From Tepidiforma sp. (GTDB lineage Bacteria; Chloroflexota; Dehalococcoidia; Tepidiformales; Tepidiformaceae), in assembly GCF_026003995.1 (NCBI RefSeq), contig NZ_BPIG01000001.1, positions 62,001 through 126,000 of the forward strand: a DNA stretch of 64,000 nt, in the 5' to 3' direction. Positions 10,677-21,479 of the stretch are shown here, piece after piece. A model generated the notes under the pieces. The model had not been told where the DNA came from and made no database searches. It saw only the letters and a list, made by a program, of their open reading frames with translations. Position 1 is the first letter of the stretch. Each line of letters opens with the position of its first letter. The translations under genes and the position numbers were made by a program.

Positions 10677-10690
10677 GTGACCTAAGTCAA
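10677..10690. promoter_or_regulatory. Crp/Fnr-type binding site upstream of the DUF2249 gene
   Basis: GTGAC-CTAA-GTCAA is a near-perfect palindrome of the Crp/Fnr kind. Its centre lies about 42 nt before the GTG start at 10726. If that transcript is leaderless (CACGATT lies at the -10 position), the site sits at the classic class II activation distance. A matching site precedes the narG/nxrA-like gene. Confidence 0.65.
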
Positions 10691-10725
10691 ATCTTCCGCT
10701 CGCCGGGAAGGGCACGATTGGGGCC

Positions 10726-10950
10726 GTGATGCAGCTCGTCATCGATAACCGCGGCCTCGAACCGCCCCAGCCGATGGTTCGCATCCTCCAGGCGCTCGCG
10801 GCCCTGCGCGAGGGCGACGAACTCGTCGCGCTCATGGACCGCGAGCCGCGCCTGCTCTACCGCGAACTCGAACGGCGCGGGTTCGCCTGGGAGTTCAGCG
10901 AAGCGGACGACGGCCCGCGCGTCCGCATCTGGCGGGGGCCTTCGGCGTGA
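10726..10950 (+). CDS. DUF2249 domain protein
   Basis: The 74-residue protein is a complete DUF2249 domain: it opens with LVIDNRGLEPPQPM and contains LREGDELVALMDREP and LYRELERRGF, the standard motifs of this small alpha/beta fold related to TusA-like proteins. DUF2249 genes commonly occur with denitrification and anaerobic-respiration genes; the biochemical role is not established. Starts GTG (10726) and ATG (10729) are adjacent. Its stop overlaps the start of the next membrane-protein gene (GTGA), so they form one operon, apparently under the upstream Crp/Fnr site. Confidence 0.85.
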   Translation: MMQLVIDNRGLEPPQPMVRILQALAALREGDELVALMDREPRLLYRELERRGFAWEFSEADDGPRVRIWRGPSA

Positions 10951-12272
10951 ACGGCATCGACCCTGGCGCCGTCCCGCCCGCCCGCGCGGTGGCGCCCTTC
11001 CTCGTGACGGCGCCTCTCGGCCTCGCTGTCGCCGGTATCGCCCTCCTCGGCGCTGGCCCCGGCACGCTCGATGGCCCCTCGACGCCCGCCTTCCTCGCCG
11101 CCGTCCACGGCGCAGTGCTCGGCTGGCTCACTCTCTCCATCATGGGCGCGACGCTGCAGCTCGTGCCATCGGTCCTGGGCGGCCGCGCCATCAGCGCCCG
11201 CGCGGCGCTCACCGCGTTCGTTCTCCACTCGGCTGGCGTCACGCTCATGGTGGCCGCCTTCGCCGGCTGGCGGCTGCCGCTGCTCGCGTCCGGCGCATCA
11301 CTCGCCTCCGCCGGCGTTGCGGTCTACCTCCTCACGGCCGCCCGCCCGCTGCTCACAGCTCGCGCGCGTGGCCCTGAGGTTCTCAGCCTCCGGCTCGCCC
11401 ACCTCCTCCTTGGCGCCGCCGTCGCTGCCGGGCTGACGCTGGCCCTGGCCCTCCGGTTCGGCTGGTTTGGCGTTACGCCGGGCCTCGTCGCCGCCCACGC
11501 CCACCTCGGCATCGTCGGCTGGCTCGCTATCGCCATCACTGGCGTCACGTACCGCCTCCTGCCGATGTTCGGCATCGTCCGCGGCACCGAACCCCGCTTC
11601 GCGAACGTTCTCCCCTGGGCGCTTGCCGCTGCCGCTGGCGCCGCATTCGTCGTCCTGGCGGTCGATCCTCCGCCCGCGGCACGGCTCGTCCTCGAAGGTG
11701 CGCTCGCTGGCCTCGGCCTGCTCTGGCTGAGCGACGCGCTTCGGCTCTACCATTCCCGACTCCGCCGGCGTTCCGACCTCTACAGCCGCGCCACGTTGCT
11801 GTCGTTCGCCTTCCTCGCAGCCGCCCTTCTCCTCGCACCCGCCGCAGCCGTCCTCCCGGCCGACGCCCGGCCCGTCGCCGGCCCCGCGCTCCAGGCTGCC
11901 TGCGGCTTCCTCCTCCTTCCCGGCTGGGCCGGCGCCACGCTCGTCGCGAACAGCTACAAAATCGTCCCCTTCATCGCCTGGTATCACCGCTACAGTGCCG
12001 TCGCCGGCACCCGCTGGACGCCCGGGACTGGCGACCTCTACTCCTCCCGCCTCGCCCACGCTGTCCTCGTCCTCGTGGCGGCCGCGACGGCGCTCGCCGC
12101 TGTCGCGGCCCTCGCCTCGAGCCTCCCGCTGCTCCGCCTCGCGGGAGCTGCCTTCGCCGCTGCCGGGGTCATCGCCTGCGCCACGCTCGCCGGCACGTTC
12201 ATTACCCGTCCGGAGCAGCGAAGCGCCGTGCCGTCACCGCCCGGAATGCCTGCCCCTGCGATCCGCCGCTAG
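10947..12272 (+). CDS. Heme-copper-oxidase-subunit-I-like integral membrane protein
   Basis: This 441-residue polytopic protein has about 12 hydrophobic segments. Histidines sit in motifs reminiscent of heme-copper oxidase or NO-reductase subunit I: HGAVLGWLTLSIMGATLQLVP and HAHLGIVGWLAIAITGVTYRLLPMF. The full set of oxidase ligands is not apparent, so a heme- or metal-binding relative is a safer call than an active oxidase. The GTG start overlaps the DUF2249 stop by 4 nt. Related proteins occur in denitrification gene clusters, and a role in handling nitrogen oxides is inferred from that and from the Crp/Fnr site upstream. It is convergent with the regulator gene, 6 bp away. Confidence 0.6.
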   Translation: MNGIDPGAVPPARAVAPFLVTAPLGLAVAGIALLGAGPGTLDGPSTPAFLAAVHGAVLGWLTLSIMGATLQLVPSVLGGRAISARAALTAFVLHSAGVTLMVAAFAGWRLPLLASGASLASAGVAVYLLTAARPLLTARARGPEVLSLRLAHLLLGAAVAAGLTLALALRFGWFGVTPGLVAAHAHLGIVGWLAIAITGVTYRLLPMFGIVRGTEPRFANVLPWALAAAAGAAFVVLAVDPPPAARLVLEGALAGLGLLWLSDALRLYHSRLRRRSDLYSRATLLSFAFLAAALLLAPAAAVLPADARPVAGPALQAACGFLLLPGWAGATLVANSYKIVPFIAWYHRYSAVAGTRWTPGTGDLYSSRLAHAVLVLVAAATALAAVAALASSLPLLRLAGAAFAAAGVIACATLAGTFITRPEQRSAVPSPPGMPAPAIRR

Positions 12273-12278
12273 CCGCCG

Positions 12279-12974
12279 TCACAGGTAGCGCCGCAGGCCC
12301 TCGAGGTCGCGAACCACGTACCGGTGGCGCTCGACGGCGATGACCCCTTCGTCTTCGAGCGCCCTTAGCGACCGTGCGACCACCTCCCGGACGCTCCCGA
12401 CGAGCGACGCCAGGTCCTGCCCGCTCAGCCGCCGCGCGATGACGACGCCCTCCGCCGTGAGCTGCCCCGTCTCCCGCGCTTCGGTGTACAGGTAGCGCGC
12501 CAGCCGCTGCTGCACCGTCTGCAGCGAGAGCTGCTCGACGAGTTCGTTGAACGCCCGCAGCCGCACCGCGAGGTGCCGCAGAAGCGCCCGCGCAACCGCC
12601 GGGTAGCGCTCGACCAGCACCTGCGCCACAGCCGCCGGCACGAGCACCACCACCGCTTCCTCCAGCGCCTCCACGCTCGCTGCATTCGGCCCGCCGTCGA
12701 AGACCGGCACCTCACCGAACGTCTCCCCGGGGCCGACGATCCTCAGCGTCTGCTCCCGCCCGTCGGGCGCCGTCCGGAAAAGCCGGAGCGTGCCCCGGCG
12801 GACGAGGTAGAAGCCAGCGCAAGGCTCACCTTCCGTCATCAGCCGGCCGCGCGGGGCGAGCCGCTGACACCGCAGGAGCGGAGCCACCGTCGCCGCCTCC
12901 GCCTCCGTCAGCGAGGCGAAATGGGGGATCGCCAGCACGTCCCGGGGCTCGACCTGCACGCGCACATTTTCCAC
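12279..12974 (-). CDS. Crp/Fnr family transcription regulator
   Basis: The 231-residue protein has an N-terminal cyclic-nucleotide-binding-like beta-roll (FYLVRRGTLRLF, GETFGEVPVFDG), a dimerisation helix and a C-terminal HTH_Crp with SGQDLASLVGSVREVVARSL. There is no N-terminal cysteine cluster, so it is not an Fe-S FNR; heme or another ligand is possible, as in DNR or NnrR. The GTG at 12974 (VENVRVQVEPRD) fits the family; the track's ATG at 13070 would add 32 unfamiliar residues. It is divergent from the molybdoenzyme operon, with the palindrome at 13088 between them. The likely targets are that operon and the DUF2249 unit, because both carry the same palindrome. Confidence 0.88.
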   Translation of the reverse strand: MENVRVQVEPRDVLAIPHFASLTEAEAATVAPLLRCQRLAPRGRLMTEGEPCAGFYLVRRGTLRLFRTAPDGREQTLRIVGPGETFGEVPVFDGGPNAASVEALEEAVVVLVPAAVAQVLVERYPAVARALLRHLAVRLRAFNELVEQLSLQTVQQRLARYLYTEARETGQLTAEGVVIARRLSGQDLASLVGSVREVVARSLRALEDEGVIAVERHRYVVRDLEGLRRYL

Positions 12975-13087
12975 CAACCGGAGTCCGGCCGCCGGACGGC
13001 TGTTGCTGCATCTATGGCTGTCATTTGCTTCCCCGATAGGTGCACGAAATCCGGTTCGTTGTGCCCTCAACCGCCTCGCCCCCGCCC

Positions 13088-13101
13088 GTGACGATTGTCA
13101 C
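13088..13101. promoter_or_regulatory. Crp/Fnr-type palindrome upstream of the narG/nxrA-like gene
   Basis: GTGAC-GATT-GTCAC is a perfect 5+5 palindrome. It lies 67 bp before the GTG start of the large subunit and 113 bp from the regulator start. A weak -10 (CAGGCT at 13125) would place the site near -42, matching class II activation. It could also give autoregulation of the regulator. Confidence 0.7.
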
Positions 13102-13168
13102 AGCCCGCGGCCTACCCCCGGGTGCAGGCTGAGGGCATCCGAACCATCCGCCCCGCAGGGAGGCGCCC

Positions 13169-16618: not shown

Positions 16619-16885
16619 GTGGCCGAAAAAGACGTCGAACTCGATGACCCGTACGCCTTCGTCGCGCAGCGCTTCCCTGTTCCCGAAGGCGTCGACCAGG
16701 ACGCGCTGATGGCCCGCTGCATCGTCGAGGAGTACGCCCTCATGGCGATGCCGCCCGAAAAAGCGCTCCGCATGTTCGCCTCGCCCTACTTCTCGGGTAC
16801 GCACGCCATCTACCGCCGCCGCGGAGAAGCCTTCGTCCGCGACATCATCCGCACCGTCTACGGCGCTGCCGCCGGGGAGGTTTAG
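16619..16885 (+). CDS. Small unknown protein between alpha and beta subunit genes
   Basis: An 88-residue soluble, acidic-then-basic protein that I do not recognise. It has no cysteines except one in ARCIVEEYAL, no signal peptide and no membrane segment. A conserved-looking patch is FASPYFSGTHAIYRRRGEAF. Coding is supported by the tight placement (3 bp after the alpha stop, 2 bp before the beta ATG), a GGAGGG ribosome-binding site, and codon usage like its neighbours. A cytoplasmic assembly or maturation factor for the molybdoenzyme is a reasonable inference from position. Confidence 0.75.
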   Translation: MAEKDVELDDPYAFVAQRFPVPEGVDQDALMARCIVEEYALMAMPPEKALRMFASPYFSGTHAIYRRRGEAFVRDIIRTVYGAAAGEV

Positions 16886-18135: not shown

Positions 18136-18888
18136 ATGCCAGTCCTCAAACCCGCTCCCGTCGAACAGCTCGCCGCTGACGCCGCCCTCGCCGAACTCCT
18201 CGCGCTCATCTTCGGCCCCGCTTCGCACGAATCGCTCCAGCGCGCCCGGGAGCTGTGCGCTGCGCTCGCCGCGCCCGACGCCGCCGGGCTCGACCTCGCC
18301 CGCCTCGCGGCGCTCTTCGATATCCTCGACCCGGAACGCTGGGACGCCCAGCGTGTCGCCGTCTTCTCGGTCGGCACCTCCGCCGATTGTCCGGCGTTCG
18401 AAACAGCCTACTTCGCCGCGGAAGCCCACCGCCAGCCCCACCGCATGGCCGACCTAACCGGCCTCTACCGTGCCTTCGGCGTCATACCGGTGCCAGGTGC
18501 CGGCCGCCCCGACGACCTGGCCGTCGAACTCGAATTTCTCGCGTTCATGCTCCGGAAGGAGGCCTGGGCCCGTGAGCACGGCGGCGCGCCGCGCGTCGCG
18601 CAGGTCCAGCGCGGCCTCCGCATCTTCCTTGCCGAGCACCTCGGCCGCTGGGCGCCTGCCTTCGCCGCCCGTGTCCGCGAACGCGGACCGGCGACCATCT
18701 TCACGCCTGCGGCGGCGCTGCTCCAGTCCCTCCTCGCCGCCCAGGCGGCCCGTCTCGGCGTCCGCGACATCGCCCCCGCGCCCGGCTTGGATCCTGCCGC
18801 GTGGGAGACACCCCGCAGCCACGGCCCTGAATTCGGCGTCTCATCCTTCATCTCGGCCGACGCCATCCCCGAGGAGGGTTCGCCATGA
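18136..18888 (+). CDS. TorD/DmsD/NarJ-type molybdoenzyme chaperone
   Basis: The 250-residue all-helical protein shows the TorD-family pattern: CPAFETAYF, then HRMADLTGLYRAFGV, then PDDLAVELEFLAFMLRKEAWA. Such chaperones bind the alpha subunit and its Tat signal until the cofactor and Fe-S clusters are inserted, and act in the cytoplasm. Its place directly after the beta gene (12 bp) and before the gamma gene (ATGA overlap) fits dedication to this enzyme. The C-terminal 50 residues (SHGPEFGVSSFISADAIP) look like a flexible tail. Specificity for the neighbouring alpha subunit is inferred from context. Confidence 0.87.
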   Translation: MPVLKPAPVEQLAADAALAELLALIFGPASHESLQRARELCAALAAPDAAGLDLARLAALFDILDPERWDAQRVAVFSVGTSADCPAFETAYFAAEAHRQPHRMADLTGLYRAFGVIPVPGAGRPDDLAVELEFLAFMLRKEAWAREHGGAPRVAQVQRGLRIFLAEHLGRWAPAFAARVRERGPATIFTPAAALLQSLLAAQAARLGVRDIAPAPGLDPAAWETPRSHGPEFGVSSFISADAIPEEGSP

Positions 18889-19850
18889 CCCGGTTCTTCC
18901 GCTCCCGCAAGCTCCTCGCCGCATGCGCCGTGCTGCTCACGGCTGGCGTGCTCCAGTTCACCGGGGTCAACCCGGCCGCCTCCCAGGCCGTCCTCCTCGT
19001 CGCCTACGAATCTCCGCGCGACCCCGGCCTGGACCCGGCGTCGCCGGCGTGGGATGCCATCCGCGCTGTTGAGATCCCCCTCACGGCCCAGCGCGGTAGC
19101 TACGCCGCCGGCGGCGGCTCCGTCGCTACTGTCAGGCTCAAGGCCCTCCACTACGGCGGCCGCCTTTACGTCCGCGCCGAGTGGACCGACCGCACCGAGA
19201 ACGCCAGCGCCCTTCGCGTCGAAGACTTCACCGATGCCGCGGCGCTGGAGTTTCCCTCCCGTACCGCCGCCGTCGTCCCTTCCGTCTGCATGGGCCAGCC
19301 CGATGCGGGTGTCAACATCTGGTACTGGCGCGCCGACGTCGATGCCGGCAGCGTCGACCTCGCCGCTGCCTACCCCAACATGCACGTCGACGGCTACCCG
19401 TTCGAGGACGATACGTTCCTGACGGCGCGCGGCGCGGGCAACCCGGTCGCGGCCGACAACCCGGTCCAGACCCTCACCTCCCGGCTGTTCGGCTACCTCA
19501 CCACCTCGCCCGTGCAGGATGCCGCCGGCAAAGGCATGCGGACCGATACGGGCTGGGCCGTCGTCTTCGCCCGCCCCTTCCGGAGTCCCGGCCCCGACCA
19601 CGCCGACTTCGCCCCCGGTGCGCGGACCGACCTCGCGGTCGCCGTCTGGGACGGTGCCAACCAGGAACGCGACGGCATGAAGTCCGTCTCTCAGTTCATC
19701 ACGCTCCAGGTCGCTGCCGCGGGCCTGCCCGGCGAGGGCGGCATCGACGGCCGCTTCGTGGCCATCGCCGCGATTCTGCTCGTCGGGCTCTCGGGCATCG
19801 GCATCGGCCTCGCTCTCTACGGCGCCGCCGAACGGAGCCGCCAGCCATGA
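18885..19850 (+). CDS. Type II DMSO reductase family gamma subunit (heme b, EbdC/DdhC/NxrC-like)
   Basis: The 321-residue protein has an N-terminal secretion signal (LLAACAVLLTAGVLQFTG), a beta-sandwich heme-binding domain, and one C-terminal membrane helix (about 285-308). Motifs typical of the ethylbenzene dehydrogenase gamma family are present: LYVRAEWTDRTEN, VCMGQPDAGVNIWYWRAD and WDGANQERDGMKSVSQF. A Met and a Lys in these segments normally bind heme b. It would link the Tat-exported alpha-beta pair to the electron-transport chain on the outer face of the membrane; the C-terminal anchor explains the absence of a NarI gene. It overlaps both neighbours (ATGA). Confidence 0.82.
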   Translation: MTRFFRSRKLLAACAVLLTAGVLQFTGVNPAASQAVLLVAYESPRDPGLDPASPAWDAIRAVEIPLTAQRGSYAAGGGSVATVRLKALHYGGRLYVRAEWTDRTENASALRVEDFTDAAALEFPSRTAAVVPSVCMGQPDAGVNIWYWRADVDAGSVDLAAAYPNMHVDGYPFEDDTFLTARGAGNPVAADNPVQTLTSRLFGYLTTSPVQDAAGKGMRTDTGWAVVFARPFRSPGPDHADFAPGARTDLAVAVWDGANQERDGMKSVSQFITLQVAAAGLPGEGGIDGRFVAIAAILLVGLSGIGIGLALYGAAERSRQP

Positions 19851-20821
19851 CCGCCGCGACTCCCACCCGCCCGTTCCTCGCTGCAGCCGTCCCGTGGCTT
19901 GCGCTCGCCGTACTCATCGAACTCCTGTTGCTCCGCACCGGTACGCGCCTGGCCATCCACGTCCCCGCTGGCCGCGCCCTCGAAACGCCCTATCTCGCCC
20001 TGGCCGCGCTGGGCCGATTCGCGTTCTTCGTCGCCCTCGTCCTCGCGGTGCTCATCGCCGCGGCTGCCGTGGTGGACCTCTGGGTCCGCGGCGATGCGCC
20101 GGCGCGCGTCGCAGCGGTCTGCCTCGGCGGGTTTGCCGCGGCCGCCGGGCTGCTGCTGCTCCTCCCCGGGGCGAGTCCGATGGTGGCCGCCGCCGCCGCC
20201 ATCGCCGCCATCGCCCTGGCCGCGGCGGTGGTCCCCCGCGGCGGGCTGGTCCCCGCGGTCCCGTTCTCGCTCCTCGGGTTCTCGCTCATCGCATCGGCCG
20301 CCTACGCGGCCACCCAGGCCTCACCCGCGCTTCCTTCCGGCGCCGCCGTGCCGTTGCTCGACGCCGCCGAGGCGGCGGGGCTCGCGGCCGGCGCCGCGCT
20401 CCCGCTCGCGCTCTGTCGCCGGCCAGGGTTCGCCGCCGCGGGCTTCGGCGCGGCAGCCGCCCTCGGCGCCCTCACGGTCTTCGCAGCTCCCGCTGCCAGC
20501 GGGCGCATCATCCTGCTCTGGAACGGCGGCGTCACCGGCGCGCTCCCGCCGGTGCTTTACGCCGCGGCCGCTGCCGGCTTCGCCGCTGCCGCGTGGCAAG
20601 CGTGGCGCCGCGGCGAGCGAATGCTCCTGGCTGCGTTCGCGCTGCTCTTCGCCGGCGGCCTCGGCTTCCACAACACCTACCAGTCGCTGCTGCTCCTCGA
20701 TGCCGCAGCGGTCGGCGCGCTCTTCATCGCTCGTCCAGTGCCCGCCGCTGCGCCGCAGCCCTCGCCGGCGGCGCTGACCGCCCCCGCCGCTCGCCCCCAC
20801 GGCCCGCCGGGCCTAGCATGA
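19847..20821 (+). CDS. Polytopic membrane protein of the molybdoenzyme operon, function unknown
   Basis: A 324-residue, extremely Ala/Leu-rich protein with about 9-10 predicted membrane helices. Residues that stand out are His/Trp near the end of helices (GGLGFHNTYQSLLLLDA, WNGGVTGALPP). I recognise no family. The ATG overlaps the gamma-subunit stop (ATGA), so it is surely cotranscribed; the track's longer ORF in this frame reads through the gamma gene and is not real. It could be the membrane electron carrier, an anchor, or a transporter for nitrate/nitrite, but no motif distinguishes these. Confidence 0.75.
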   Translation: MTAATPTRPFLAAAVPWLALAVLIELLLLRTGTRLAIHVPAGRALETPYLALAALGRFAFFVALVLAVLIAAAAVVDLWVRGDAPARVAAVCLGGFAAAAGLLLLLPGASPMVAAAAAIAAIALAAAVVPRGGLVPAVPFSLLGFSLIASAAYAATQASPALPSGAAVPLLDAAEAAGLAAGAALPLALCRRPGFAAAGFGAAAALGALTVFAAPAASGRIILLWNGGVTGALPPVLYAAAAAGFAAAAWQAWRRGERMLLAAFALLFAGGLGFHNTYQSLLLLDAAAVGALFIARPVPAAAPQPSPAALTAPAARPHGPPGLA

Positions 20822-20831
20822 CCCTTATCCC

Positions 20832-21479
20832 GTGCGCGTCCTCATCCTCGTCCTCGGATTCGTCGCGCTCATCGCCGGGGCGGCCTGCACCGCCTCCGGC
20901 GTCGCCTCGCTCCGCACCCTCGATGAGGACGACTACATGCTCAGCGGCCCCGCCCGGCTCACCACCTCGACCTTCGGCTTCGTCGGTGCCACGAAAGAGA
21001 TTGCCGGCCGCGACTCCGGCCTCCGCGAAGGCGCGGTGACCGTCCGCATCCGGGCTATCGAAGGCGAGAACCTTTTCCTCGGCATCGCGCCCCGCGAGGC
21101 CGCAGACGCCTACCTCGGCGCCGCCCGCCGCGAACTCCTCGACGAGGTCCGCTACGACCCGCTCGAAGTCCGGCGCACGGGTGCGGGCGCCGGCGACCTT
21201 CCCGGCCCGCCCGGCCCCGCGGTCGCCTGGGCGGCGAGCGCCGCAGGCGATGCCCCGCTCGAACTCACCTGGCAGGCCGAGAACGGTGACTTCGTCTTCG
21301 TCATCCTCCGCGAGGACGGCAGCGCCGGCGTCGACGCCGTAGTCGAATTCGGCACGAAGTTCCGCTACCAGCGCGGCTTCGCCACGGCCGGCATCGCGTT
21401 CGGCATCCTCTTCGTCGTGGTCGGGCTCCTGCTCGCCTTCGCGGCACTCCGCCGAAGGGGCGCTTCGCCGCGGGGTTAG
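20832..21479 (+). CDS. Membrane-anchored protein with two terminal helices, function unknown
   Basis: The 215-residue protein has one membrane helix at each end (about 3-25 and 183-206) and a soluble loop of about 155 residues between them, predicted to face outside. No catalytic motif is seen; the loop contains VTVRIRAIEGENLFLGIAP and LELTWQAENGDFVFVILRED, suggesting a beta-sandwich. The arrangement recalls uncharacterised membrane proteins in actinobacteria and Chloroflexota. It starts with GTG 10 bp after the preceding gene and ends overlapping the tyrS stop region by 4 bp on the other strand. It may or may not belong functionally to the molybdoenzyme operon. Confidence 0.75.
   Translation: MRVLILVLGFVALIAGAACTASGVASLRTLDEDDYMLSGPARLTTSTFGFVGATKEIAGRDSGLREGAVTVRIRAIEGENLFLGIAPREAADAYLGAARRELLDEVRYDPLEVRRTGAGAGDLPGPPGPAVAWAASAAGDAPLELTWQAENGDFVFVILREDGSAGVDAVVEFGTKFRYQRGFATAGIAFGILFVVVGLLLAFAALRRRGASPRG

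Follow-up and report, generated by a model that had tools for sequence, protein, structure and literature searches.

A putative two-operator Crp/Fnr regulon joining an NXR-type enzyme operon and a DUF2249/heme-copper-like operon in Tepidiforma

In the window (the whole stretch of Tepidiforma sp. DNA analysed, 64,000 nucleotides), two candidate operators of one type precede a DUF2249/heme-copper oxidase-like (HCO-like) operon and the operon of an NXR-type molybdoenzyme, and the neighbouring Crp/Fnr regulator very probably activates both operons through these operators in a class II arrangement. The Crp/Fnr protein (12279-12977) would bind the TGTGAC-N4-GTCACA operators as a dimer, with one operator in the DUF2249-HCO promoter and one in the promoter of the NXR-type operon, each centred at about -41.5. 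Once bound, it would take the place of the -35 element and activate both promoters through a class II contact with RNA polymerase, so that expression of the two operons would change in parallel in response to a single respiratory cue (nitrite, nitrate, NO or the oxygen state). In this regulon model, we infer that the protein binds the operators and that it activates rather than represses, as well as the nature of the signal. The local regulon predicted by the first-pass annotation is supported by the genome-wide uniqueness of the sites, their co-occurrence with the regulator, conservation across the family, class II geometry and the co-occurrence of the gene units. Its further proposal, that the DUF2249 and HCO-like proteins are tied to the molybdoenzyme, gains support from their co-occurrence with regulator and enzyme and from the shared operator type. 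With modest confidence, we favour a wider reading as well, in which the NXR-type enzyme and the DUF2249-HCO-like pair are jointly activated by a Crp/Fnr protein that has no sensing residues of Fe-S or cAMP type, this pair serves as an NXR auxiliary (NO/nitrite handling or maturation), and the circuit is restricted to Tepidiformaceae.

Operators, regulator and gene units

The palindromes noted in the first-pass annotation, GTGACGATTGTCAC at 13088-13101 and GTGACCTAAGTCAA at 10677-10690, were both located in the window and form the cores of operators N and D, respectively (Table 1). Their pattern yields three strand-matches at two places in the window, compared with 0.09 expected and a maximum of two in 100 shuffles. 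The genome-wide motif search that had been suggested was run over 2,840,342 bases: operators D and N are the sole places in the genome that match TGTGACNNNNGTCACA with at most one mismatch, and matches with two mismatches occur at background (19 vs. 15 for the reversed control). Each operator matches TGTGA-N6-TCACA at 11 of 12 informative positions. The reading of an N4-spaced motif separate from CRP sites was set aside because GTGAC-N4-GTCAC equals GTGA-N6-TCAC; judged by sequence, the operators are CRP-type palindromes, for which TGTGA-N6-TCACA is a better notation than the original N4 form.

Table 1. Features of the locus (window positions)
Feature	Position	Strand	Remarks
Candidate operator D, TGTGACCTAAGTCAAA	10676..10691	+	upstream of DUF2249/HCO-like operon
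-10-like hexamer CACGAT	10713..10718	+	29.5 bp from operator D centre
DUF2249 (TusA-like) protein, 73 aa	10729..10950	+	PF10006 E 3.3e-19; alternative start GTG 10726
12-TM-type protein, predicted heme-copper oxidase subunit I fold	10947..12272	+	alignment, structure model
Crp/Fnr-family regulator	12279..12977 (12977 approximate)	-	PF00027 (effector domain, E 3.1e-21), PF13545 (Crp-type HTH, E 5.1e-15), PF00325; start uncertain, several TTG/GTG candidates
Candidate operator N, CGTGACGATTGTCACA	13087..13102	+	divergent crp-nxrA intergenic region
-10-like hexamer CAGGCT	13125..13130	+	30.5 bp from operator N centre
NXR-type molybdopterin alpha subunit (NxrA-like), 1148 aa	13169..16615	+	full-length match to Kuenenia NxrA 7b04
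88-aa conserved protein	16619..16885	+	between alpha and beta genes; no family match
NXR-type iron-sulfur beta subunit (NxrB-like), 411 aa	16888..18123	+	match to 7b04 NxrB
NarJ/TorD-type assembly chaperone	18136..18888	+	PF02613 E 6.8e-13; TIGR03482
Heme b gamma subunit (EB_dh)	18885..19850	+	PF09459 E 7.2e-28

As had been stated, the regulator gene lies between the two units, convergent with the DUF2249/HCO-like operon and divergent from the NXR-type operon, and its product carries the effector and DNA-binding domains of the Crp/Fnr family. Its recognition helix, GSVREVVAR, contains an R-E-x-x-x-R pattern that is kept in the family (orthologue alignment) and that is also found, by comparison, in CRP/GlxR-type proteins. 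Proteins of this type have TGTGA specificity, and the helix of the regulator appears, as expected, to fit TGTGA half-sites. In the same orthologue alignment, no 4Fe-4S ligand cysteines are conserved, which separates the protein from FNR sensu stricto, and a search for an Fe-S or heme-His sensor found no invariant Cys or His. Neither is it a CRP sensu stricto, as it lacks the cAMP-binding Arg-Ser/Thr of CRP/GlxR: the GPRTSS of GlxR aligns with GPNAAS or GPNPAT (motif GGPN[AP]A), and cAMP binding is doubtful because the cAMP-phosphate Arg is replaced.

The molybdoenzyme encoded downstream of operator N is assigned to the NXR type (within the type II DMSO reductases) rather than to NarG/NarH. Its alpha subunit scores 1660 bits against NxrA 7b04, followed by 216 bits for the type II DMSO reductase family member 4ydd and 144 bits for the best NarG, whereas the beta subunit scores 589 bits against NxrB and 174 bits in the NarH-type comparison. 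Homologues of the NXR-type enzyme occur in many phyla, and the enzyme encoded here could act as a nitrate reductase; no NirK match stood above the cut-off. The 88-aa protein has no relative in Pfam, NCBIfam or the PDB; tblastn nevertheless recovers it from various phyla, in the majority of the NXR-type operons that were inspected, and it may be an overlooked conserved NXR-associated protein. Additionally, two further proteins conserved in the genus are encoded downstream of the gamma subunit (window 19841-21476); the first is also conserved across the family, and the second gave no match in protein family searches.

Within the other operon, the 12-TM-type protein is predicted to have the subunit I fold of heme-copper oxidases/NO reductases: its structure model (pLDDT 87.8) finds cbb3 oxidase subunit I as the best PDB fold (TM 0.66, E 1e-7). 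H54, H184 and H186 are invariant among homologues and H347 is nearly so, and an assignment as an oxidase was set aside, since only three invariant histidines stand against the six canonical metal-ligand histidines, a set that this protein lacks. The DUF2249 protein consists, as DrpA does, of a single domain of about 72 aa, and it contains no histidine, so that the histidines of DrpA homologues are missing from it. In Verrucomicrobiia and Acidimicrobiia MAGs (L231:916-2305, L230:4098-5063), DUF2249 and HCO-like genes adjoin nxrA without this operator, an arrangement that supports a functional link independently of the regulator.

Conservation of sites and genes in the genus and family

Within a set of six congeneric genomes (G000-G005), the sites follow the local regulator. 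In four genomes (G000, G002, G004, G005), the genes for the regulator, the NXR-type alpha subunit and the HCO-like protein are all present, together with exactly two sites per genome; G001 (91% complete) and G003 (98% complete) have zero sites, and all three genes are absent from them. In the crp-nxrA intergenic alignment of the four carriers, 15 of the 16 positions of operator N are invariant, compared with 38 of 199 columns elsewhere.

Across the family (37 genomes, whose phylogenetic relatedness means that counts overstate independence), nxrA is present in 19 of 20 regulator carriers, and all 17 HCO carriers have both regulator and nxrA; Fisher p values for this co-occurrence range from 1e-7 to 6e-7 in these related genomes, uncorrected for phylogeny. 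In 21 genomes, the best site reaches at least 10/12 in 32 of 50 upstream regions (shuffled mean 0.49, maximum 3) and at least 11/12 in 21 of 50 (shuffled 0.035), a count whose scored region leaves out the 'Nx' sites of G016 and G020 (L099:2893, L100:4674), which overlap the predicted mobB start. In 19 genomes, the DUF2249 operator precedes the start codon by about 41-47 bp, and in four of these it is weak; weak sites (8-9/12) occupy the expected position in some genera (G006, G016, G020, G024), and some crp-upstream regions have no site. Throughout the family, each of the two sites is found again in front of the same operon, even where the enzyme operon is far from the regulator gene, and operators precede nxr operons on contigs other than that of the regulator in G020 (L100) and G021 (L102). 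In HRbin29 (G018), which has an nxr operon and lacks a close regulator orthologue, the best upstream site reaches 7/12, and outside the family neither a close regulator orthologue nor a conserved operator was found at the nxr loci examined.

Several further observations concern these loci. A second NXR-like operon, about 43% identical, has its own operator in G021, G022 and G023 (L103, L105, L107). In other genera, a MobB-FmdE-like fusion gene, recognized by eye, stands between operator and nxrA (L099, L100, L102, L061, L064, L065, L068, L071), and the MobB part of the homologue matches PF03205; in the genome of the window, the corresponding gene is unlinked (G000:C4:92221) and the operator is absent there. 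G012 (genus g8) has a larger site set, some of it intergenic, with sites judged by eye to lie near another Crp-family gene, a gene for an epoxyqueuosine-reductase-like 4Fe-4S protein and a cupredoxin-like gene; a wider regulon is not claimed from these sites, as this genome has several Crp paralogues.

The operators might instead belong to another Crp-family protein of the same genome (G000:C2:641165), or to both proteins, with the neighbouring regulator having other targets. That protein is present in the genus, and its similar helix, GTSRETVTAL, could also read TGTGA. This assignment is nevertheless unlikely: G001 and G003 keep the second Crp-family protein (28 and 27% matches) yet have no such sites, and beyond following the local regulator within the genus, the sites recur beside its orthologues. 

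Promoter geometry and the sign of regulation

In class II CRP promoters, the operator is centred at -41.5 and the -10 element extends from -12. When promoters are aligned by their operators, 15 of 18 nxr-type promoters have a -10-like YANNNT that begins 29.5-31.5 bp from the operator centre (exactly 29.5 bp in 11), and 13 of 19 DUF2249 promoters have one that begins 26.5-31.5 bp from it, compared with a YANNNT background of 0-3 per 3-bp bin away from those spacings. Both window promoters, as predicted, fit class II CRP-type geometry, with the operator centre near -41.5. The first-pass annotation had centred both palindromes near -42 of plausible starts. A spacing of about 29.5 bp between operator centre and -10 element is the class II CRP geometry, and the '-42' therefore holds as a distance to the predicted transcription start, with a -10 spacing that recurs across genera; it does not hold for the nxrA-like GTG start codon, 74.5 bp downstream of the operator N centre. 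From the centre of operator D it is about 45 bp to the start codon of DUF2249, and with class II spacing the DUF2249 transcript would begin within a few bases of this codon.

The operator overlaps the place of a -35 element, a position that is compatible with blocking, so that the regulator might repress rather than activate by occupying the -35 region. A repressor, however, would presumably not need the fixed 29.5-bp spacing to the -10-like hexamer, which is that of class II activators, and repression is accordingly rated as improbable. Coincidental palindromes in a GC-rich genome, a reading to which the background level of two-mismatch matches might lend itself, are counted as refuted, as no other site in the genome scores as well as operators D and N and chance is ruled out by cross-genus conservation and the shuffles. 

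Significance and comparison with known systems

Transcriptional control of NXR-type enzymes is little described, and a search of open-access literature yielded no account of nxr being controlled by a Crp/Fnr protein; the conserved two-operator regulon proposed here names a candidate regulator, operator and promoter geometry. Through it, the NXR-type enzyme is also linked to DUF2249 and to a degenerate heme-copper-fold protein, whose role thereby becomes testable. Additionally, the locus points to possible nitrite or nitrate processing by cultivable Tepidiforma relatives, a subject that is not discussed in the paper on the genus (PMC10284905).

The alpha and beta subunits encoded here can be aligned over their full length with NxrA and NxrB of the Kuenenia stuttgartiensis nitrite oxidoreductase (7b04); the Tepidiforma operon also holds the EB_dh gamma subunit and a chaperone. 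The class II promoters of E. coli CRP and Corynebacterium GlxR share with this locus the TGTGA-N6-TCACA palindrome, the RE-type helix and an operator centre 29.5 bp from the start of the -10 element. In contrast to these global regulators, the putative Tepidiforma regulon is local, comprises two operators, and has a regulator in which the cAMP-phosphate Arg is replaced.

The most similar circuit described so far is the dnrST-nar-drpAB nitrate respiration region of Thermus thermophilus, in which the master regulator DnrT drives drpAB beside the nar operon (PMC6282519). DrpA is a 72-aa DUF2249 protein that, together with DrpB, was proposed to sense nitrate (PMC6282519), and its histidines are conserved in some homologues (PMC11218638); this sensor role is not transferred to the DUF2249 protein of the window because the latter has no histidines. 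In both circuits, a regulator gene adjoins the operon of a nitrate enzyme, and the regulator drives, or in Tepidiforma would drive, a small DUF2249 operon beside it. The Thermus circuit differs in its NarG-type enzyme, its second regulator DnrS and its DrpB (DUF1858 and two DUF2249 domains), whereas the Tepidiforma locus combines an NXR-type enzyme with a DUF2249 protein whose partner is a predicted heme-copper-fold membrane protein.
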